From: Pseudanabaena sp. | Lineage (GTDB): Bacteria > Cyanobacteriota > Cyanobacteriia > Pseudanabaenales > Pseudanabaenaceae | DNA length: 51,507 bases | Assembly: GCA_003249035.1 (NCBI GenBank) | Contig: QBMK01000029.1 | Coordinates: 1-51,507 of the forward strand | Direction of reading: 5' to 3' | Part shown: positions 11,163-35,173 of the stretch, in pieces | Layout: every line of letters starts with the position of its first letter | Position numbering within the stretch: position 1 is the stretch's first letter | Notes under the pieces: model-generated | Told to the model about the DNA's origin: nothing | Database searches by the model: none | What the model saw: only the letters and a program-made list of their open reading frames with translations | Translations under genes and position numbers: made by a program

Positions 11163-12119
11163 ATGGAGGTATTCAAACCATTGGCAAGTCAGCAAGAGCA
11201 AAAACTGAGTCAAGGTATTAACCTAATCGCCCGTCTCAAGAAATTTGTTGACCAATCTGCTAATATGCTGAACTTAGATGAAGATGTGGCAATAGATAGG
11301 GGCATGACTCAAATTATTAAGTCGGCGGTAATGGTAATTGGTGGTGGAGAGGATAAAGTCCAAGACCGCAAAATTCTCAAAGCCTTTGTAGAAAGTTCTG
11401 GTGGCTCCCAAGCTCGCATTGCTATTATTCCTTGCGCCTCAAGAGAACCTGATATCATTGGGCGAATTTATCATGATATTTTTACTGAACTTGGTGCAAG
11501 TTTAGTTGAGGTATTGGATATTCGCGAGCGTCCTCATGATGATTATCCCGAAGCCGAAGCTATAGTAGATCGGTTTACAGGAATTTTTATGACTGGTGGA
11601 GACCAGCTTCGTCTGTGCGCCTTGATCGCCGATACGCCTTTTGCGATCACGATCGCTAAGCGGATCGATCAAAAACGTTTAGTTTTAGCAGGCACAAGTG
11701 CTGGCGCAGCTGCGATGGGTTATCACATGATTTCAGGAGGCAGTAGTGGCGAGTCCCCTCATAAAGAACTTGTGAACATGAGTACTGGCTTAAGTATCTT
11801 GCCTGAAATTATTGTCGATCAGCATTTTCATAACCGTAATCGGATGGCTCGTCTGATGACTGCGATCGCCGCGCATCCTGACAAAATTGGTATCGGTATT
11901 GACGAAGATACGGTGGCAATTTTTGAGCCAAACAATACCATGCGTGTTCTGGGGCGTGGTACTGTCACTGTAGTTGATCCCGGTGAAGTGTCCTACAGTA
12001 ATCAACTATGGGTTAGTGGCGCAGCACCCCTTACAATCCATAACTTACGTGTGCATATTCTTGCCGCAGGTTGCAAGTATCACATGCTCAAGCGCATTCC
12101 CATTAGTCCTTCGGTATAA
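11163..12119 (+). CDS. cphB: cyanophycinase
   Basis: Serine exopeptidase of family S51 that breaks the nitrogen reserve cyanophycin into beta-Asp-Arg dipeptides; cytoplasmic. Seen: VIGGGEDKVQDRKIL at about residue 57, GIFMTGGDQLRL, the nucleophile elbow GTSAGAAAM at about 178-186, DQHFHNRNRMARLM with the candidate catalytic His, and GIGIDEDTVAIFE with the acidic residue. These are the features of CphB rather than of bacterial dipeptidase E. About 50 residues precede the conserved core; an internal ATG (MTQIIKSAVMVIGGG) is an alternative start. Cyanophycin synthetase (cphA) is often nearby in other cyanobacteria but is not in this window. It converges on the SPFH gene through a shared hairpin. 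Confidence 0.93.
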   Translation: MEVFKPLASQQEQKLSQGINLIARLKKFVDQSANMLNLDEDVAIDRGMTQIIKSAVMVIGGGEDKVQDRKILKAFVESSGGSQARIAIIPCASREPDIIGRIYHDIFTELGASLVEVLDIRERPHDDYPEAEAIVDRFTGIFMTGGDQLRLCALIADTPFAITIAKRIDQKRLVLAGTSAGAAAMGYHMISGGSSGESPHKELVNMSTGLSILPEIIVDQHFHNRNRMARLMTAIAAHPDKIGIGIDEDTVAIFEPNNTMRVLGRGTVTVVDPGEVSYSNQLWVSGAAPLTIHNLRVHILAAGCKYHMLKRIPISPSV

Positions 12120-12153
12120 ACCAAAAAGGCTCGCTTAGCGAGCCTTTTTGGTT
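12119..12153. terminator. bidirectional terminator between cphB and the SPFH gene
   Basis: 16-bp perfect arms with loop TTA (core GGCTCGC-TTA-GCGAGCC) and outer A/T runs. It touches the stop codons of both convergent genes and should terminate both. Confidence 0.85.
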
Positions 12154-13120
12154 ATTTAGTCCAATTTTCTGTCTCTGGGCTATCAACAATCGATTTCAAG
12201 CCTTCTAGAGTTGAAGGTAGCGATCGCGGATCCATAAACATAACTTTGCTACTGCCACTCGATCCAATCGTCGTACCCATAGAAATATAGCTTTGGGCTA
12301 GCAAAAATTGCAACGCTTCCTGAGATTGAGGATTGCCTTTCATAGATTGCAATAATACCTGCATCGCCTGAGCCGTCCCTTGTGCTTTTAGTACCTGCTC
12401 CTGACGCTCTGCCTCCGCCCGCAAAATTCGTGACTGTTTCTGCCCCTCTGCTTCTAAAATCGCCGCCTTTTGCGAAGCTTCTGCATTAAGTAACTGCGAA
12501 TCTGCTAGACCTCTTGCCTTGTTAATCGCTGATTCGCGATCGCCCTCAGATGTAAGAATTATTGCTCTCTTTTTCCGCTCAGCTGTCATTTGCATTTCCA
12601 TAGCCTCCTGCACAGCTTTAGCAGGCAAAATATCGCGCAACTCTACCCTTGTCACCTTAACGCCCCAAGGATCAGTAGCGTCATCTAGATCTCTTAACAG
12701 GATCTCGTTGATTTTGCTCCTTGCAGTGAATGTCTCATCAAGCTCCAATCTGCCAAGCTCTGAGCGAATTTGGGTCAAGACTATGTTTGCCATCGCTTGA
12801 CGTAAGTTATCAACACGATAAAAGGCTTTTTCCATATCGACTATACGCCAGTAAATTACGGCATCGGCGGTAATCGAAACGTTATCGCGAGTAATACATT
12901 GTTGAGGCGGAATATCTAGCACTTGCTCTTTTATTGAGCCTTTGTAGCTCACAGTATCAATAAAGGGCAAGATAAAGTGGGGGCCAGCAGGAAGTTTACG
13001 TTTATATTTACCAAAAGATGCGACCAATGCCTCTTCACCTTGGTTAACTATTTTAAACGATGTACTACCGACGCCAAAGAATACACTGGCACCGATTACA
13101 AATCCAAATAGTATGTCCAT
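12152..13120 (-). CDS. SPFH/Band 7 (stomatin/QmcA-like) membrane protein
   Basis: Membrane-anchored SPFH-domain protein of the stomatin/prohibitin type, which forms large oligomeric rings in membrane microdomains and often regulates proteases. Seen: N-terminal hydrophobic anchor (about 1-18), band 7 domain at about 20-180 with [57 protein letters not shown] and [14 protein letters not shown], then a long Ala/Glu/Arg coiled coil (about 180-255) with the [16 protein letters not shown] stretch, and a short tail. Length 322 is typical. No NfeD partner is adjacent. The family call is firm; its role here is inferred only. Confidence 0.93.
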
Positions 13121-13236: not shown

Positions 13237-13339
13237 ATACCAAAACACAAAATGGCGTAGCTATTTTGTGTTTTTAAAACCCTTACTGGGTTTGGTTTCT
13301 AATTCACAAAAGTGTGACGACACTTTTGTGAATTAGTAT
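13237..13339 (-). repeat. 103-nt three-hairpin repeat, copy B (inverted)
   Basis: Same length as copy A at 10549-10651 but inverted. The stem nearest TTGGTAT reads AAAACACAAAATAGC/GCCATTTTGTGTTTT here against AAAACTAAAAATGGC/GCCATTTTTAGTTTT in copy A; the CT-AG and AC-GT positions have changed on both sides of the stem, so pairing has been kept. It fills much of the 330-base spacer upstream of the SPFH gene; the rest (13121-13236) probably holds that gene's promoter. Confidence 0.85.
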
Positions 13340-20504: not shown

Positions 20505-21788
20505 ATGTCGGTCGATTATGACCTCGTTGTGATTGGCATGAGTACTCATGCTCATAAATTAGTTAGCCTTGCGGCTCAACGTGAAGCCAGAGTAGCTTGG
20601 GTATTGGATCATCAATTAAAAGATGCTTATCTAAATATTCCCCAGATTGAGCATATTTTACAGTTATTAAAAAATAAGCTGCGCGATCGCCATAAATCTG
20701 AGCGGTTGCAACTTTTTGCTCAGCAGATATCCTTGATTCGCGATAATTTTTGTCAGGAGGAAATGTTAGAAACACTGCAAAAAAATGGAGTTGATGTAAT
20801 TATTGGGGAATGTAAATTTCAAGGCAAAGTCCAAAAATCCCATATTTTAGAAGTTCGCGACACTTCTCTCTCAGAGAGAGCTAGAGTATTTTCTCAGCGC
20901 AGCCTCAGTTCACGAGCCTATGCGATCGCCCATGTCATCACACCACAGCGGAAAATATTTGGGCTTACTGCAAATAATTACTTAACCGCAAATCAACTCC
21001 TAAATTTGGAAGATTTGCCTAAATCGATCGCTGTTCTAGGTGATGACTCCTATGCTTGTGCGATCGCGCAGACAATAAATTTTCTGGGTGTACATACAAG
21101 CTTAATCACTAATCGTAATCATATTTTACCAAATGTAGATGTGGCGATCGCTCGTACTTTGCAGGCTCAACTAGAAGCTGAAGGGATTGAGATTTATACC
21201 AATACCCAAACAACTGCGGTAAGTCAAATTGAGCATAGTCGCACAAGAATTTGGCTAGACAACCAAACGATAGAATGCGATCGCCTGTTAATGCCCATAG
21301 CGCCAAAAGAGTTTTATTCTCCTAGCGATCGCCATATTTATCAATGCCACAGCGATCAAGATATTGCCATGATCGTGAAACAAACCTTACAAACTGATTT
21401 TTGGCGATCAGTATCCATGCATCAAGTTCCGACGATGATTAATGTATCAACAACGCCAACCGTTGCTCAGATTGGGCTGACTGAATTATCCGCAAAACAA
21501 AAGTATGGGCCAGCCCTATATATTTTGGAAAACTCTGCTGAGAATAGCTTGTGCAAAATCATTTGCAACCATAAAGGGCAAATCCTGGGTGCAAGTATGT
21601 TTGGCGAAAGTGCCAAGCTAGTGATCGAGGCGATCGCGATCGCGATGCAAGGAAAAGTCAAAATCCAGAATATTGCTGTTTTACAAGAGTTACAGATCAC
21701 AGAGCAATGGGAAAAACTCCATTGCAATCGTCGCCAGCAATCGAAATTCAAGAACTGGTTTACTTTTCGGCGTGATTGGAACATTTAG
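20505..21788 (+). CDS. pyridine nucleotide-disulfide oxidoreductase-like protein lacking the active Cys pair
   Basis: Flavoprotein-like, resembling mercuric reductase or dihydrolipoamide dehydrogenase in layout. Seen: N-terminal DYDLVVIGMSTHAHKLVSLAAQREARVAWV, where the FAD-binding GxGxxG is degenerate; an NAD-type fold at about 160-250 (SIAVLGDDSYACAIAQTINFLG); ECDRLLMPIAPK; and a C-terminal dimerisation-like domain (VAQIGLTELSAKQKYG ... GQILGASMFGESAKLVIEAIAIAMQ). The redox-active CxxxxC after the FAD motif is absent. It may bind a nucleotide or flavin without disulfide chemistry, perhaps as a sensor or structural paralogue. It is divergent from the CBS-PAS kinase across only 36 bases. The gene ends in a palindrome shared with the converging GTPase gene. 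Confidence 0.7.
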   Translation: MSVDYDLVVIGMSTHAHKLVSLAAQREARVAWVLDHQLKDAYLNIPQIEHILQLLKNKLRDRHKSERLQLFAQQISLIRDNFCQEEMLETLQKNGVDVIIGECKFQGKVQKSHILEVRDTSLSERARVFSQRSLSSRAYAIAHVITPQRKIFGLTANNYLTANQLLNLEDLPKSIAVLGDDSYACAIAQTINFLGVHTSLITNRNHILPNVDVAIARTLQAQLEAEGIEIYTNTQTTAVSQIEHSRTRIWLDNQTIECDRLLMPIAPKEFYSPSDRHIYQCHSDQDIAMIVKQTLQTDFWRSVSMHQVPTMINVSTTPTVAQIGLTELSAKQKYGPALYILENSAENSLCKIICNHKGQILGASMFGESAKLVIEAIAIAMQGKVKIQNIAVLQELQITEQWEKLHCNRRQQSKFKNWFTFRRDWNI

Positions 21789-21831
21789 AGATAAAAACAG
21801 TACTTCGCCCTGTTTTTATCTCTAAATGTTC
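21779..21831. terminator. palindrome spanning the stops of two convergent genes
   Basis: 22-bp perfect arms (21779-21800, 21810-21831) with a 9-nt loop. The arms contain AAC-ATT-TAG, so both genes end Asn-Ile-stop. Adjacent A/T-rich arm sequence makes it a good bidirectional terminator. Confidence 0.85.
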
Positions 21832-23000
21832 TGAAATCTTTTTAATATTGATCCTTCGGGGATATCTCGAATAATTTCGGAGATTAATGTTTTTGCACCA
21901 AGCTTGCCAGAAGCTTGACTTTGATCGATATCAGCGATGAGGTTCTTAAATAGTAACAATAAACTTAAGCCCGACCCAATAATTTGAATATAACGAGCAA
22001 CTTCGTTATTGAGTCCTACACCTCCAGCAAAAACTGCGATCGCCAAAATCACCATTAACCATAAGTACTTTTTTTGACTCGGATATTTGCCGAGCGCCCA
22101 AATCACGAATAGACCAGAAAAAATACCACCAATCAGGCCATCCCCCCATCGCCAAGGTGATATCAACATCCCGATTGCCTCGGCGATAAATACCAAAGCT
22201 ACGATCACTGTTGATGCTTGTAATTTTTGTACATGTCTCTGAGTGACTGTTTTTTGAGTTTCTAACAGCGATCGCAATGCATTCACGGCTAATAGTTCCT
22301 TCCCTTCAGTATTCAGCAAATCTAGAATTCGCTCTTTTAAAGATTGGACATCAGGCTTCGGCTGTTCCCAAACTTCTTGGCTATCTCGCCCATCACTATA
22401 TTGGAGCCTTACCTTAAAAGGCTTTGGCTCTGCTGAAGTCAAGACAATCTCTTGCGGCGAGATCAGCTTTTGCATTTCTGCATTTTGTAAGGCGCTATGA
22501 ATAGCATAGCGATCGCACTCAGGATAAAGATCGGTTTTATTAAAAATCAACAAAATCGGCTTATAGTATTTTTGTAGATTAGCGATCGCCTCCTGTTCTA
22601 ACCTCGTCATATCTCCAGCAATCACAAACAAAATTAAATCAGCTTGTTTAGCTGCTTCTAGAGCCATCTCTCCCCTGATTTCACCACCAACCTCATCAAT
22701 TCCCTGTGTATCAATTAATCGCAGTTGAATTTTTCCGCCAGCATCCCACGCATACACTGCAATATCTTTAGTTGTGCCATGAGTAGCACCCGTCTCGCTT
22801 AGCTTCTCTCCCAGTAAAGCATTAATTAATGATGACTTTCCCCGTGATACCATGCCAAAAACTGCGATCGCGATCGCGCTTTTATCTAGCTTCTCTTCAA
22901 GTGCTAATATTTCTGCGAGTTCAGATTCGGTTAATTCTTTTTGAAATAAATTGCGATAATTGGTTAGGCGATCGCGCACCAGTTGAAGACAATCTTGCAT
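21822..23000 (-). CDS. membrane-associated Era/dynamin-like GTPase
   Basis: About 392 residues. Seen: a G domain with GMVSRGKSSLINAL (P-loop, about residue 48), a Thr-containing switch I (HGTTKDIAVY), DTQGIDEVGG (G3) and NKTD (G4); then a linker with EVWEQPKPDVQSLKERI and a C-terminal region with three hydrophobic stretches (STVIVALVFIAEAIGMLI, GLIGGIFSGLFVIWALG, LWLMVILAIAVFAGGVGL) that should insert in the membrane. The layout fits the bacterial GTPases with a C-terminal membrane module common in cyanobacteria; the cellular role is not established. Start chosen at 23000 (MQDCLQLVRD), which lies 7 bases after the upstream Uma2 stop, so the two are probably co-transcribed. Confidence 0.82.
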   Translation of the reverse strand: MQDCLQLVRDRLTNYRNLFQKELTESELAEILALEEKLDKSAIAIAVFGMVSRGKSSLINALLGEKLSETGATHGTTKDIAVYAWDAGGKIQLRLIDTQGIDEVGGEIRGEMALEAAKQADLILFVIAGDMTRLEQEAIANLQKYYKPILLIFNKTDLYPECDRYAIHSALQNAEMQKLISPQEIVLTSAEPKPFKVRLQYSDGRDSQEVWEQPKPDVQSLKERILDLLNTEGKELLAVNALRSLLETQKTVTQRHVQKLQASTVIVALVFIAEAIGMLISPWRWGDGLIGGIFSGLFVIWALGKYPSQKKYLWLMVILAIAVFAGGVGLNNEVARYIQIIGSGLSLLLLFKNLIADIDQSQASGKLGAKTLISEIIRDIPEGSILKRFQNI

Positions 23001-23007
23001 GAAAAAG

Positions 23008-23589
23008 CTAACCCAGAATATCACTCAAATCAATCTCAATTTCTGGAATTACGCCACTTTTAATCATGACATCACCTTTATAGATAGTTTCTTCATAAAA
23101 GCCTTCAACCCAAGATAGTAGGGTAATCTGACTACGCACAGGATCGACTATCCAATACTCAGCAATTCCTCTCGCAGCATATTCAGAGCGCTTAAAGCGA
23201 TAGTCCCTTGATTCATTCTCATGTCCAGCAGATACGACCTCAATTACCACCAATGGAGGAGGCATATCATGGGTAATTGTTCCTCTCTTCGTCATCTCTA
23301 AAGCTATCCGACATTCTTCGCCCAAAATTATCAGATCAGGTATTCTGACCTTAGCTCTACGACCACTTACCTCAATCGAGACTTCCTTGTATGCTAGCAA
23401 GTGAGGGGGAATAAATTTGCCTAAAGCAAAAAATAGTCGTCTTGATACATCAGAGTTAAAAATTGATTCTGGGGGCATTGCAACTAATTCTCCATCCTCT
23501 AGCTCATAGCGAGTATCACCGCCGTCATCATAGGCATAGTAATCTTCGTAGGATAGATACTTGACTTGGGGAATCGCAGCTTGAACCAT
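23008..23589 (-). CDS. Uma2 (DUF820) family nuclease-like protein
   Basis: A 193-residue member of the Uma2 family, a PD-(D/E)xK restriction-endonuclease fold hugely expanded in cyanobacteria. Seen: the entry motif LSYEDYYAYDDGGDTRYELEDGELV, VRIPDLIIL with the catalytic Asp, PPPLVVIEVVSAG with the E-x-V, and the RDYRFKRSEYAARGIAEYWIVDP block. All expected acidic residues and the Lys are present. The biological role of these proteins is unclear; some may be linked to mobile elements. It precedes the GTPase with a 7-base gap and follows the radical SAM terminator. Confidence 0.92.
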   Translation of the reverse strand: MVQAAIPQVKYLSYEDYYAYDDGGDTRYELEDGELVAMPPESIFNSDVSRRLFFALGKFIPPHLLAYKEVSIEVSGRRAKVRIPDLIILGEECRIALEMTKRGTITHDMPPPLVVIEVVSAGHENESRDYRFKRSEYAARGIAEYWIVDPVRSQITLLSWVEGFYEETIYKGDVMIKSGVIPEIEIDLSDILG

Positions 23590-30204: not shown

Positions 30205-30244
30205 GTAAGTGCTAAAAAGCGCTTGCTTACCTAGCCCAAAAAAG

Positions 30245-31441
30245 ATGATGGCAAAGCTGAAGCCCGCTGCACAGGATGCAGTTCTCGGAGGTCAAGTACC
30301 ACCGCCACTTGGTGCTGTGGTGCTAGGTGGTTTGGAAGGGGTGAAACGCAGATTGAGTAGTCCCGCGATCGCACCCAGAATTGCCGCTCTGAGCGAAGCC
30401 CTTAACTATGGCGAAACAGGTTTGAACTTAGTTTTGCGAGGTTTAGAGGATGAATCGCTCAAAGTACAGCGCACAGCTTTATTACTACTCTGGCGCAGAC
30501 CTGAATCTTACATTCGTCAAGTATTAGCTGAATATAGTCAATATCACCTGTTTGATATCGTCGATACTGTGCAGGGTCATGCCGATGCGATCGCTTCTCT
30601 AGCTTTGTCAGCCAATGGCAGAATTTTATATAGCGCTGGTGCAGACTTCAGCATCAAAGTCTGGGACTTAGGAAAAGATAGAACTCAGCATAAGCAGATT
30701 GGGACGATTCGCGGTCATAACCATATTGTTACTTCCATTGCCCTTAGTGCTAATGGCAGAATATTGGCTAGTGGCAGTCGTGATAAAACGATTAAACTCT
30801 GGGATGCGCGATCGGGAAAAGTACTGCTAAAGATCACAGGGCATATAGGCTATGTCAACTCTGTGGCAATTACGCCCGATGGCAGAACTTTAGTAACAGG
30901 CAGTCAAGACACCACGATTAAGCTTTGGGATATCAAAACAGGTGCAGAAATTCGCACTCTGCGCGGTCACACCAGTCTTGTAGATTCCGTTGCGCTAAGT
31001 CCCGATGGCAAGGCGATCGCTAGTTGCAGTTGGGATACCACCATTCGGATCTGGGATTTACTCTCAGGCAAATTGCGCTGGGAATTTATTGGTCATTCAG
31101 CACGAGTACTTTCCTTTGCGATTAGTCCTGATGGCAGAACCTTAGTCAGTGGTAGTCTCGATACTCGCATCAAAGTTTGGGATTTACAAACAGGTAAAGC
31201 GATTCGCACCTTAGAGGGACATTGGGGCTGGGTCAAGTCTTTGATAATTAGTCATGATGGCAAAACCTTGATCAGCGCTAGTTACAAAGAAATCCGAGTT
31301 TGGAACCTAGAAACAGGCGAGCCAATTCAGGTTCTCAATGGGCATATAAATCTGATCAATGCGATCGCTCTCAGTCGAGATGGACAAACCTTAGTTAGTG
31401 GCGGTGAAGACTCTAATATTCACATCTGGAGTGTTCCATAA
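30245..31441 (+). CDS. WD40-repeat protein with N-terminal HEAT-like region
   Basis: About 398 residues. The first 110 form a helical region (EAVLGGQ-like AVLGGQVPPPLGAVVLGGLEGVKRRL, then HEAT-like EALNYGETGLNLVLRGLEDESLKVQRTALLLLWRR). Seven WD40 repeats follow, each beginning with a GH (VQGHADAI, IRGHNHIV, ITGHIGYV, LRGHTSLV, FIGHSARV, LEGHWGWV, LNGHINLI) and mostly ending WD/WN, enough for one closed propeller. It is a protein-interaction scaffold; the partner is unknown. The start at 30245 (MMAKLKPAAQD) is preferred because the frame's earlier GTG at 30209 lacks a ribosome-binding site and conservation. It ends in a palindrome shared with the converging TPR gene. Confidence 0.88.
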   Translation: MMAKLKPAAQDAVLGGQVPPPLGAVVLGGLEGVKRRLSSPAIAPRIAALSEALNYGETGLNLVLRGLEDESLKVQRTALLLLWRRPESYIRQVLAEYSQYHLFDIVDTVQGHADAIASLALSANGRILYSAGADFSIKVWDLGKDRTQHKQIGTIRGHNHIVTSIALSANGRILASGSRDKTIKLWDARSGKVLLKITGHIGYVNSVAITPDGRTLVTGSQDTTIKLWDIKTGAEIRTLRGHTSLVDSVALSPDGKAIASCSWDTTIRIWDLLSGKLRWEFIGHSARVLSFAISPDGRTLVSGSLDTRIKVWDLQTGKAIRTLEGHWGWVKSLIISHDGKTLISASYKEIRVWNLETGEPIQVLNGHINLINAIALSRDGQTLVSGGEDSNIHIWSVP

Positions 31442-31490
31442 TCAAGAGAACTTTTTGCAAAGCAAAAAGTTCTCTTGATTATGGAACACT
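31430..31490. terminator. 29-bp perfect palindrome spanning two convergent stops
   Basis: Arms 31430-31458 and 31462-31490, loop AAA (GCAAAGC core). Each arm contains AGT-GTT-CCA-TAA, so the WD40 and TPR proteins both end Ser-Val-Pro-stop. Should terminate both transcripts. Confidence 0.88.
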
Positions 31491-32396
31491 TCGTAATCTT
31501 TGAAGCTGACGCTCACTTTGTTGCGCCCATTGAGTATTTTTCTGCTGAGTAAAAAATGCTTGAGCTTGGACAAATGAATCGATTGCGTCTGGCTTTTGTC
31601 CAGCCTTTACCTGTGCAACACCAAGTGTATAGAGAGCCTCAGCATAGTCCTTCCGAAATTTCACAGCATTGCGCAGTTGCCCGATCGCCTTTTCTGTTTC
31701 ACCTTGAATTAATAGAGCTGCCCCCAAATTGTAATAAGCCTCTGCATATGCAGGATTTAGTTGCAGAGCTTTGGCATAATATGCGATCGCTTTTTGGACA
31801 TCGCCCTGAGTCTGAATTAAGAGACCTAAGTTATAGATAGTTTCAGGCGCTTGAGGATTTAGCTTTAGAGCTTGATTGAGGTTAGCAATTGCATTTTTTA
31901 AATCTTTTTTCTCTTTAAATGCTAATCCGAGATTGTAATAGGCAACTGAGAGTTTTGGATCGAGACGAACAGCTCTTTGTAAATTTGGAATAGCTTGGTT
32001 AGGATCTCCTGACTGCAACTGGGCAGCACCTAAATTACTGAAGGCGACCGCAAACTTGGGATCGAGCCTAGTTGCTCTTTGAAAAGAATGAATAGCCTCT
32101 TTGAGCTTACCTTCCTGCGCGTAAGCCAGTCCAAGATTGTAATGCGCGGCTGTTAGTTCAGGATTTTTCTTGATGGCCGCACGAAAAATCACCACAGCCC
32201 CTTCCAAATTCCCCAAACGCACATAAGCGTTACCTCGCTCTAAAAGCTGATCGGCATTTTCGTTAGGTGGTACAACAATCTGTTGCTGGAACCGAACTTT
32301 TTGCGGTGGTTTGTCACGCGGTTGCGCGATCGCTGCACCTGCATAACCCAAACTAACTACAAAGACCCACGCAAAAACTCCCAAAAATGGTTTCAT
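31479..32396 (-). CDS. exported TPR-repeat protein
   Basis: 305 residues: a signal peptide (MKPFLGVFAWVFVVSLGYAGAAIAQP, cleavage near AIA-QP) followed by about seven tetratricopeptide repeats from about 48 to 290 (e.g. NLEGAVVIFRAAIKKNPELTAAHYNLGLAY). Predicted periplasmic or lumenal scaffold. It is related in style to the larger TPR protein at 6878-8437 but is a separate gene. Monocistronic; its last codons lie within the palindrome shared with the WD40 gene. Confidence 0.87.
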   Translation of the reverse strand: MKPFLGVFAWVFVVSLGYAGAAIAQPRDKPPQKVRFQQQIVVPPNENADQLLERGNAYVRLGNLEGAVVIFRAAIKKNPELTAAHYNLGLAYAQEGKLKEAIHSFQRATRLDPKFAVAFSNLGAAQLQSGDPNQAIPNLQRAVRLDPKLSVAYYNLGLAFKEKKDLKNAIANLNQALKLNPQAPETIYNLGLLIQTQGDVQKAIAYYAKALQLNPAYAEAYYNLGAALLIQGETEKAIGQLRNAVKFRKDYAEALYTLGVAQVKAGQKPDAIDSFVQAQAFFTQQKNTQWAQQSERQLQRLRSVP

Positions 32397-33211: not shown

Positions 33212-33994
33212 ATGCGCCGCAGACAAATTCTTCGACTCGCCCAAGGTGGACTAATATCAGCATTTACCGCAGGAATCATCGCTGACGCAGCCAAATCGCA
33301 GACAAATTCAACCCTAAGAATTCAATGGCTGGGACATATGTCATTTCTGATCTCAGGGGATAATGTCAGTTTCTTAACAAATCCTTTTCGCCCCTCTGGC
33401 TGCACCGCCAAATTAACTGCTCCCTCTGCAAAAGCTGACTATGTTTTGATTAGCTCACGACTGCTTGACGAAGGATATTTGGAAAATCTTCCCAAAGATA
33501 TGAGGGTTTTGTCTGAGCCAGGTTCTTATAATCTAAAAGGGATTAATCTTCAAGGAATTTCGATGGATCACGATCGCGTCGGTGGTCGCAGATTTGGGCG
33601 TAATGTGGCATGGCGCTGGAAGCAGTCAGGAATTTTTATATTGCATTTAGGTGGTGCAGCCGCACCCATCAATGCCTCCCAAAGAATTTTGATGGGTCGT
33701 CCTGATGTTTTGATTTTGCCCGTCGGCGGTAATGCTCAAGGTACTGATGCAATGCAACTAAAAGCTTATTCCCCCACAGAAGCTAGGGCGATCGTGCAGG
33801 AGTTAAATCCCCGCATTGTTATTCCCACTTACTACCGTACTGACAAATCCAGTAGTACTTGCCAATTAGCATCGGTCGATGAGTTTCTTGCCCTTATGCC
33901 CAAAGATAGCGTGCGTAAGCTTGAAGGCCCAATTTTAGAGCTTAATGCCAGCAGTCTCCCTCAAACTACTGTAGTGAGAGTCCTAAAATCTTAA
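33212..33994 (+). CDS. exported metallo-beta-lactamase-fold protein with degenerate metal site
   Basis: 260 residues. N terminus MRRRQILRLAQGGLISAFTAGI looks like a twin-arginine-type signal. The body follows the UPF0173/UlaG-type layout (IQWLGHMSFLISGDNVSFLTNPF ... ILHLGGAAAP ... VLILPVGG ... ARAIVQELNPRIVIPTYY), but the SHxHxDH metal motif is replaced by ISSRLLDEG and HLGD by HLGG. Most metal ligands are therefore missing and hydrolase activity is doubtful. It could be a binding or structural derivative. Family fold is fairly sure; function is not. Confidence 0.78.
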   Translation: MRRRQILRLAQGGLISAFTAGIIADAAKSQTNSTLRIQWLGHMSFLISGDNVSFLTNPFRPSGCTAKLTAPSAKADYVLISSRLLDEGYLENLPKDMRVLSEPGSYNLKGINLQGISMDHDRVGGRRFGRNVAWRWKQSGIFILHLGGAAAPINASQRILMGRPDVLILPVGGNAQGTDAMQLKAYSPTEARAIVQELNPRIVIPTYYRTDKSSSTCQLASVDEFLALMPKDSVRKLEGPILELNASSLPQTTVVRVLKS

Positions 33995-34023: not shown

Positions 34024-34076
34024 AGTATCACCATAAAAAAAGACTTGCTGAGCAAGTCTTTTTTTATGGTGATACT
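34024..34076. terminator. 26-bp palindrome overlapping the transpeptidase stop
   Basis: Perfect arms 34024-34049 and 34051-34076 around a single G. The right arm includes the last sense codons and the stop of the minus-strand gene; the left arm is its exact inverted copy in non-coding DNA. Long A/T runs support bidirectional termination. Confidence 0.87.
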
Positions 34077-35173
34077 CTCACGATAGTTTCCTTAGTCACC
34101 TGACTAAATAACTCGCGAATATCTTCGTTATACATACGGATGCAGCCATGAGAGGCGGCTTGTCCAACAGAAGCTCGGTTAGGAGTCCCGTGGAAACCAG
34201 ACCAATCTTTCCCATCTGTCCAAAAGCCAATCCAACGATCGCCTAAAGGATTTTCAGGATCTTTGCTAGGGATTACGTCACCAGTAAATGGATTTTGCCA
34301 AGCAGGATATTTAATGGTTTGTAAAACGCGATGGTTACCAATTGGAGTGCTCCAACCTGCCTTACCCACCGCAACAGGATATGTTTTTAAAGGTACTTCA
34401 CCATGAAAGGCGGTAACTTGACGCTTGCTGATGCTAACTTCGAGACGAGTGACTTGCATCAGTTCCCGATCCCACAGTTGTCGATTAGGGTTAATCGTAT
34501 AGAGCGATACCAATGCTGGTAATTTCTTTTGGTAAGCAAGAGCTTGATAAAGAAGTACTGCAAGTTCGCTTTTAGTAATTGCATTAGTGGGCGCAAGAAT
34601 ACGTGGATCGGGATAGTTAGTAACTAAACTTTGTTGAGTCATCGTCGCGATCGCAGGGATTGCATAGTCAGGGACTTTCAAGGCATCACGATACATTGAA
34701 AGCAAGTAAGTCTGTGGGGTTTTATTGGCTTTGCTATTTAGGTTAAGTTGACTTGCGATCGCCACTAATGCTTCAGCTTTGGTGGCAGGCTCATTGAGTC
34801 TTGTGGTAATTTTTGGTGCATTCCGATTCGCAAAAGCGATCTCCAGTAAGTTAGCAAGTTCAGCGCGGGTAATGGGGCGATCGGGCTGAAATTGGCTATT
34901 TCCATCAGGGTTAACTAAAGCTGCCTTCAAATCTGGCTGAGACAATAAACCTTCTACAAATAAGCGCGACCAATGGTTTTGTAAATCTATGAATAAAAAA
35001 CGATTAGGATTTGATTTATTGGCAGAATTTACTTTTGCTTCTAGAGCATGTGCCTCAAAGATATGGTTTTGAAAATTCCCACTTAGTGAAATAAATGCAA
35101 AAATATTTGTCGCGATCGCAACATTCACAAAAGAAGATAAAAGATTTTGCGATCGCATTCTCATAAATTTCAA
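34064..35173 (-). CDS. SLH-domain L,D-transpeptidase
   Basis: Exported peptidoglycan-remodelling enzyme, 369 residues. Seen: signal peptide or anchor (about 10-45), SLH-type repeats at about 60-215 (FIDLQNHWSRLFVEGLL, PDRPITRAELANLL, TNAITKSELAVLLYQAL) that bind cell-wall polymers, and a YkuD domain at about 240-369 with VSISKRQVTAFHGE, the HGTPNRASVGQAASHGCIRM active site carrying the catalytic His and Cys, and a C-terminal TIVRV. It would make 3-3 cross-links or attach proteins to the wall. Single gene with a 100-base promoter region upstream. Confidence 0.93.
   Translation of the reverse strand: MKFMRMRSQNLLSSFVNVAIATNIFAFISLSGNFQNHIFEAHALEAKVNSANKSNPNRFLFIDLQNHWSRLFVEGLLSQPDLKAALVNPDGNSQFQPDRPITRAELANLLEIAFANRNAPKITTRLNEPATKAEALVAIASQLNLNSKANKTPQTYLLSMYRDALKVPDYAIPAIATMTQQSLVTNYPDPRILAPTNAITKSELAVLLYQALAYQKKLPALVSLYTINPNRQLWDRELMQVTRLEVSISKRQVTAFHGEVPLKTYPVAVGKAGWSTPIGNHRVLQTIKYPAWQNPFTGDVIPSKDPENPLGDRWIGFWTDGKDWSGFHGTPNRASVGQAASHGCIRMYNEDIRELFSQVTKETIVRVSP

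Follow-up and report, generated by a model that had tools for sequence, protein, structure and literature searches.

The WD40 repeat protein and the TPR protein encoded by two convergent genes of Pseudanabaena sp. end in the same residues, and this identity is very probably the result of DNA template switching across the hairpin that lies between the two genes. Both genes are located in the window, the whole stretch of 51,507 nucleotides that was analysed (contig QBMK01000029.1). The data point to DNA template switching, best classed as quasipalindrome correction, with the shared C-terminus as a by-product rather than a signal at the protein level. The same process would also make and keep the perfect hairpins of the genus and invert their spacers, and it could carry codon changes, stop codons and C-terminal residues between convergent genes.

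The junction between the WD40 and TPR genes

The WD40 gene (30209..31441, plus strand; PF00400), the putative donor of the terminal codons, and the TPR gene (31479..32396, minus strand; PF13414 and PF00515, with an N-terminal signal-like stretch by eye), the putative recipient, converge on an inverted repeat at 31430-31490. The left arm (31430..31458, plus strand), presumably the source, and the right arm (31462..31490, minus strand), presumably the copy, are each 29 nt long and flank a 3-nt spacer, AAA (31459..31461), at the centre of the heptamer GC-AAA-GC. The arms are 100% complementary, with 29 of 29 pairs formed, and the complementarity ends abruptly. The first 12 nt of the left arm are the last three WD40 codons and the stop, and the right arm supplies the final codons of the TPR gene; read in its own gene's frame, each arm gives AGT GTT CCA TAA, which amounts to 12 coding bases, and the identity continues past the stop through 17 untranslated bases per arm. 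The WD40 protein thus ends in ...I-W-S-V-P-TAA and the TPR protein in ...L-R-S-V-P-TAA. The original prediction, that both arms contain AGT-GTT-CCA-TAA and both proteins end in Ser-Val-Pro, agrees with this reading. Its "29-bp perfect palindrome" is indeed perfect, but in size it is a 61-bp inverted repeat made of two 29-nt arms, and the arms begin exactly with the Ser codon AGT, whereas the prediction put their start one base ahead of a codon boundary. Since WD40 and TPR are different folds according to Pfam, common descent of the two gene ends is excluded.

We searched both proteins in 57 relatives and in their own genome. The junction could be read for 19 of the 25 genus relatives; for the remaining six, the two genes did not both lie in one stretch, or one of them was not found. 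The WD40 end is [VI]P followed by the stop in 14 of the 19 relatives and [VI]P with an extension in the remaining 5. The TPR proteins end in SS, SI, SN, SG, GN, NG, IN, NS or RG, and in none of the 19 in VP. Since [VI]P is kept in WD40 and VP is absent from the TPR relatives, V-P is ancestral to the WD40 gene and newly gained by the TPR gene of the window's strain, and the copying runs from WD40 to TPR. The original prediction had also turned on whether related strains share these C-termini without a palindrome; a TPR end in -VP lacking the palindrome was found in 0 of the 19. These comparisons bear directly on the idea that Ser-Val-Pro is a functional C-terminal signal gained by selection in both proteins. 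The motif is common to both, and [VI]P is conserved in the WD40 gene, yet it is missing from the TPR protein in all 19 relatives, and selection on a peptide leaves unexplained why the identity of the arms continues through the stop and 17 untranslated bases. We regard such a signal as barely conceivable.

The sister genome G016 offers a comparison for the state before the copying. Here, the WD40 gene ends in TGG AGT GTT CCA TAA and the TPR gene in CGC AGT AGC TAA, and the hairpin between them has arms of 20 nt, each ending at a stop codon. Under template switching, the starting state would be a short hairpin between the WD40 and TPR stop codons. During DNA synthesis, the growing strand would leave its template inside the hairpin, copy the opposite arm (on its own new strand or on the other parental strand) outwards into the WD40 end, and return to its own template at the short match AGT, already near the TPR end. 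The right arm would thereby become the exact reverse complement of the left one, and the TPR end ...R-S-(S)-stop would become ...R-S-V-P-stop, with AGC replaced by GTT CCA and the protein longer by one residue. The AGT of the TPR gene in the window (31488..31490, minus strand; ACT on the plus strand) would be the rejoining point, and AGT in the TPR gene of G016 stands at the exact place where the window's copied arm ends. Copying the left arm of G016 onto its right arm as far as AGT raised the score of its alignment with the window from 50.5 to 61.5; the model sequence used for this carried one surplus base at the junction. As a match of 3 nt at one locus, AGT would by itself be a weak sign of rejoining. 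The event was reconstructed from relatives, the closest of which show 93% (WD40) and 86% (TPR) protein identity. We infer the timing at replication and the sufficiency of a single event at this locus, and take the strand and the polymerase from the literature. Several stem positions of the window's left arm do not match the sister, which means that either some substitutions took place before the copy or there was a second event.

Homogenisation of gene ends is not universal. At this junction, the arms of G005, G013 and G016 measure 13-21 nt and reach to the stop codons or one base past them; those of G019 and G008 measure 12-13 nt, and the gap of G011 and G018 holds no perfect hairpin with an arm of at least 9. 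In G024, the WD40 stop has been overwritten, and a 28-nt arm contributes four more residues, RNPS. The window agrees with a rule by which the source arm would lie 5' of a purine-rich spacer, but G024 does not, and the rule was dropped. The WD40 end is extended by YLKNV in G010. In G020, G023 and G025 there is no hairpin, the WD40 protein gains LSLTTA and the two genes overlap by 15 nt. This tail-to-tail overlap where the hairpin is missing (L018, L019 and L020) looks as if palindrome loss had fused the ends. In 8 of the 19 relatives the two genes are 1.17-1.32 kb apart (L012, L013, L014, L016, L017, L021, L022 and L023), and the intervening stretch holds, by eye, a candidate further reading frame.

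Perfect hairpins across the genus

We took a census of perfect hairpins with an arm of at least 15 and a spacer of at most 12 in 1,278,554 bases from 17 Pseudanabaena genomes. It yielded 362 hairpins, 115 of which come from the window's own genome (491,507 bases), corresponding to roughly 1000 perfect stems per genome by extrapolation from this 0.49 Mb sample. The density is 17-71 per 100 kb across the sampled genomes, except for 3.3 in G001, the relative of lowest identity among the full-length matches to both the WD40 and the TPR protein. Among outgroups, 340 kb from eight genomes, six of them of the same family and each sampled at 20-80 kb, contained no such hairpin. A third-order Markov simulation of 1.5 Mb likewise gave no perfect hairpin with an arm over 14, which rejects chance as their origin. 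This null and the genus census together support the original argument that two such cases within 50 kb are unlikely by chance and suggest a general mechanism. The scan of convergent gene pairs that it called for found arms entering both genes at 23 junctions among 180 convergent pairs in the 17 genomes, where orthologous junctions are counted per genome and many share only the stop codons or a base or two more. Genes outside the window were called with a simple codon-usage caller of our own and not a published gene finder; for G039, where it gave 32% coding, only the hairpin count was used.

The hairpins are concentrated at gene 3' ends. Only 12 of the 362 have their midpoint within a called gene. 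By type of gap, hairpins are found in 90 of 180 between convergent genes, 143 of 641 between tandem genes and 35 of 188 between divergent genes. Arms extend into coding sequence 96 times at 1039 gene 3' ends (69 times by more than 3 nt) and twice at 1065 starts; the 3'-end and gap counts are not independent, since orthologous junctions of several genomes are included. Such a strong bias suggests that selection keeps hairpins at 3' ends, which is compatible with template switching. It also fits a reading in which the stems arose by compensatory evolution under RNA selection, as bidirectional terminators or 3'-end stabilisers, and sequential paired substitutions happened to equalise the gene ends. 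The retention of hairpins downstream of genes agrees with this, as does the report that, in Bacillus cereus, constraint is stronger on terminators that two convergent genes share and that double switches occur (PMC5381666). However, scanning both strands of 31430-31490 with a simple consensus revealed no terminator-like site, the T run of the stem sits in the 5' arm on both strands, and RNA selection leaves the recipient gene's gain of a codon unexplained. No Rfam family matched in the window at gathering scores.

The stems themselves are also hard to reconcile with stepwise change. Among odd-centred stems, 252 are perfect over at least 15 pairs and 4 carry one mismatch inside at least 15 (mismatches within 8 pairs of the centre being excluded from this count), a scarcity of single-inner-mismatch stems that RNA selection does not explain. 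For 192 of the 252, pairing also fails at the position that follows the first mismatch. A spacer of 3 nt is the most frequent (195 of 362); spacers of 7-12 nt occur in 60 of the 362, and some of these resemble a tip plus a mismatch. All in all, we consider compensatory evolution under RNA selection improbable as the origin of the shared gene ends.

We also considered whether the hairpins are small mobile palindromic elements, REP- or MITE-like, inserted beside stop codons. Certain cores do recur, GAGTTGCGGCGC 11 times and TCACAAAAGTGT 6 times among the 362 hairpins, and a separate dispersed repeat of roughly 100-160 nt exists in the genus. In contrast, the 362 hairpins have 311 distinct inner 12-mers, a 351-base query around the window hairpin matched its own locus alone in its own genome (E <= 0.001), and insertion cannot account for arms built of the neighbouring gene's codons. 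An origin by insertion therefore appears extremely unlikely. The recurring core TCACAAAAGTGT has a 4-nt spacer (GACG/CGTC), which places it outside the GC-NNN-GC class described below; it occurs in the window at 13299-13336 and at L046 7713, L053 19611, L059 5746, L062 9237 and L116 17313. The dispersed repeat is C5/G5-rich and MITE-like, as at L157:7927-8085, and is found at many places in G012, G010 and G007, with 86 matches in one genome.

The hairpins share little beyond their centre. The heptamer GC-NNN-GC is at the centre of 242 of the 312 odd-centred hairpins, and its share grows with the arm, from 15 of 169 at arms of 8-9 to 128 of 159 at arms of at least 20. The central triplets, counted on either strand, are led by GAA (67), AAA (47), TAA (33) and GTA (28); among all GCNNNGC heptamers of the same sequence, GAA makes up 5% and AAA 11%. 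The oligonucleotide d(GCGAAGC) is an extraordinarily stable DNA mini-hairpin, and GNA is the favoured triloop class. The GC-NNN-GC centre suggests a physical seed for the stems. Short hairpins of arm 8-9 in the outgroup genus G029 (L072-L075) have this centre in 10 of 25 cases, so the seed may predate the long stems. Human polymerase theta is described as self-priming on stem-loops in vitro from as few as two paired 3'-terminal bases (PMC11292364), so a GC-NNN-GC tip could in principle prime. The likeness lies in the minimal 3' pairing that such a tip might offer; that system is a human enzyme in vitro (PMC11292364).

Changes between near-identical genomes

Additionally, we compared the hairpins of two near-identical genomes of the genus, G023 and G025. 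Blocks of over 800 bases with at least 98.5% identity were kept, giving an alignment of 226,756 columns with 1284 mismatches (0.57%). Starting from G023, 61 hairpins with an arm of at least 13 could be followed: 37 are unchanged, 17 have the spacer inverted, 3 show an indel, 3 another spacer change and 1 a concerted change, that is, a change in both arms, while a substitution in one arm was seen in 0 of the 61. Starting from G025, 37 of 64 hairpins are identical, 17 inverted and 10 otherwise changed, two of these ten (L164 and L166) having mismatches near the centre; in this comparison, the genomic rate would predict 12.9 arm substitutions. Near-identical genomes thus directly show inverted spacers and arms changed in concert, in two genomes of the genus other than the window's and at loci other than the WD40/TPR junction. 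The inversion of 17 of 61 spacers is again left unexplained by RNA selection.

Inversion depends sharply on the stem. Counting odd spacers up to 5 only, it affects 19 of 45 hairpins with an arm of at least 10, compared with 2 of 168 with an arm of 6-9 (Fisher p 6e-13). In finer steps, the fractions are 1/160 at arms of 6-7, 1/8 at 8-9, 3/9 at 10-12, 6/14 at 13-16, 7/15 at 17-20 and 3/7 at 21 or more. Among non-hairpin heptamers, the central triplet is inverted in 32 of 224,272. An invertible element of a site-specific recombinase was rejected, as the 362 hairpins have 311 distinct inner 12-mers and 311 distinct outer 8-mers and share the central heptamer alone.

Short-read assemblers can traverse a long perfect hairpin either way, and the inverted spacers might then be assembly artefacts. 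G025 is indeed in about 160 contigs (G023 is in one), and inversion is commonest in long arms, which are ambiguous for a small word size. However, 9 of 23 spacers are inverted at arms of 10-16, which should be too short to be ambiguous at usual word sizes; the single-contig genomes G002 and G023 are equally dense in perfect hairpins (21 and 31 per 100 kb), and the polarity evidence at the window locus is independent of spacers. Artefact is accordingly a very unlikely source of the inversions.

A more distant pair, G004 and G014 (94-96% identity), has one stem with three or four paired changes and several stems that are perfect in one genome and broken in the other.

Two individual sites show stems gained or perfected. 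At L139/L140, a quasipalindrome faces a perfect palindrome, the two differing by a 4-nt indel and substitutions. At L157/L158, one genome has a 7-bp inner hairpin where the other has a perfect arm of 30 nt, with CCT as the point of rejoining. This last site is inside a dispersed repeat to which the orthologous positions of G020, G021 and G012 have no match, and repeat copies may therefore have recombined there.

Other shared gene ends, causes and known systems

The window contains a second case of shared ends. The genes 20505-21788 (plus strand, Pyr_redox) and 21822-23024 (minus strand, MMR_HSR1 GTPase) converge on a hairpin at 21779..21831 with 22-nt arms and a 9-nt spacer, and both end in Asn-Ile-TAG; this is the other case named in the original prediction, and it is real. 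We looked for the junction in 10 chosen relatives. Both genes end in AAC ATT TAG in G000, G008, G016 and G019, in AAT ATT TAG in G018 (the synonymous change AAC to AAT being present on both sides) and in AAC ATG TAA in G005. The ends differ in G011 and G022 (Asn-Leu versus Asn-Met), the stem is imperfect in G008, and the genes overlap in G013. In G016, the junction is split by a stretch that by eye resembles the dispersed C5/G5-rich repeat and has CTAAATG on both sides.

Two further hairpins of the window show less complete versions of the pattern. At 34024..34076, with 26-nt arms, the right arm takes in the last 13 nt of the L,D-transpeptidase-like gene 34064-35158 (minus strand), and the left arm is a copy of that end located 29 nt beyond the stop of gene 33212-33994 (plus strand); the orthologous site in G019 and G011 has 20-nt arms reaching 5 nt into each gene. 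The hairpin at 12119..12153 reaches 1 and 2 nt into the stops of the convergent genes 11163-12119 (plus strand) and 12152-13120 (minus strand).

In G012, another pair ends in RIEK (left gene) and LIEK (right gene). Sisters of the left gene end in ...RREK, SEK, SDK or others, and the Ile of the G012 left gene agrees with the right gene. The right gene itself mostly ends in IES, IEN or IED in its sisters, but G006 has AEK, so the Lys of the G012 right gene may be older and the case is ambiguous; judging from these endings, a two-way exchange is possible. At the same junction in G009, G011 and G013, the stop of the left gene is directly adjoined by a copy of the right gene's own end, which is specific to each species, and in G004 and G014 the orthologous junction has no hairpin. 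In G010, QSI ends both genes of yet another pair. In total, four pairs of unrelated genes have identical multi-codon ends: two belong to the window's genome, one to G012 and one to G010.

Loss of hairpin nucleases was rejected as a cause of the hairpin density, as SbcD (TIGR00619) and the ExoVII large subunit XseA (TIGR00237) match in 26 of 26 genus genomes, the window's own included. XseA had no match in six of nine family outgroups (G026, G028, G030, G031, G033 and G034, G030 and G034 being less than 90% complete). A second full-length SbcD-like gene, an open frame of about 390-416 aa scoring 175-191 bits to TIGR00619, is present in 25 of the 26 genomes, again including the window's own (for example G000:C44:162438-163199, in L115), and second SbcD hits in other genera are weak or pieces only. 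Since G012 has one SbcD match and still the usual 27 hairpins per 100 kb, the second SbcD-like gene is not the cause.

We suggest tentatively, and with rather more doubt than confidence, that hairpin copying at the DNA level is hyperactive in Pseudanabaena: seeded at ultra-stable GC-GNA-GC mini-hairpins, it would flip spacers almost to equilibrium within 0.6% divergence, turn flanks into perfect palindromes and make the ends of unrelated neighbouring genes evolve in concert, the cause lying in a polymerase, a nuclease or the single-strand state of the genus. If true, this would be gene conversion without homology, swapping C-terminal residues and stop codons between unrelated proteins. The genus offers a natural and very dense record of template switching in a bacterium. 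As a mutational process, template switching is able to alter the C-termini of proteins, to exchange their stop codons and to link the evolution of neighbours that are unrelated, and paired stem changes, usually taken as proof of a selected RNA structure, can come from one DNA event.

Template switching at quasipalindromes is known; the setting and the apparent rate are new as far as we found, with unrelated convergent genes sharing C-termini through a hairpin. In the open-licence literature searched, we found no report of template switching exchanging the ends of convergent genes and no paper on intergenic inverted repeats in Pseudanabaena. In a broad survey of bacterial inverted repeats, the commonest spacer is 4 bp, compared with 3 nt here, and substitutions pile up in the spacers of repeats near terminators (PMC13155455). 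The terms "template switch" and "homogeniz" are absent from the main text of that survey, and part of its spacer-substitution signal could be spacer inversion.

Several known systems resemble parts of what we describe. Bidirectional intrinsic terminators also place a hairpin between the two stops of convergent genes, but differ in that no terminator-like T run was detected at 31430-31490 (PMC5381666). Coding palindromes in Nematomorpha mitochondria are likewise perfect inverted repeats with protein-encoding arms, for which template switching is one possible mechanism; those arms are within protein-coding genes, reach up to 284 bp and are mitochondrial (PMC6649704). Template switching that makes and maintains RNA hairpins shares with our case the perfect stems and the multi-base compensatory changes from one DNA event, but concerns RNA genes, whereas here the ends of convergent protein-coding genes are affected (PMC8794818).

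The closest bacterial precedent is quasipalindrome correction by replication template switching in E. coli, described at the thyA hotspot and in lacZ reporters, where imperfect inverted repeats become perfect with the nascent strand serving as hairpin template (PMC7202029). In E. coli, mutations are scored at reporters and hotspots, whereas here the stems are natural and the ends of unrelated convergent genes act as donor and recipient. In yeast coding genes, arm homogenisation and spacer inversion mark template switching, with inversions only at arms over 9 bp (PMC8604942); the same two signatures appear here, with inversion rising at an arm of about 8-10 bp. The yeast inversions were described in ten coding genes among strains, inside single genes (PMC8604942), whereas in Pseudanabaena 19 of 45 eligible hairpins have inverted spacers between two genomes at 0.57% mismatch; almost all of the hairpins are intergenic, and those at gene ends extend across two genes.
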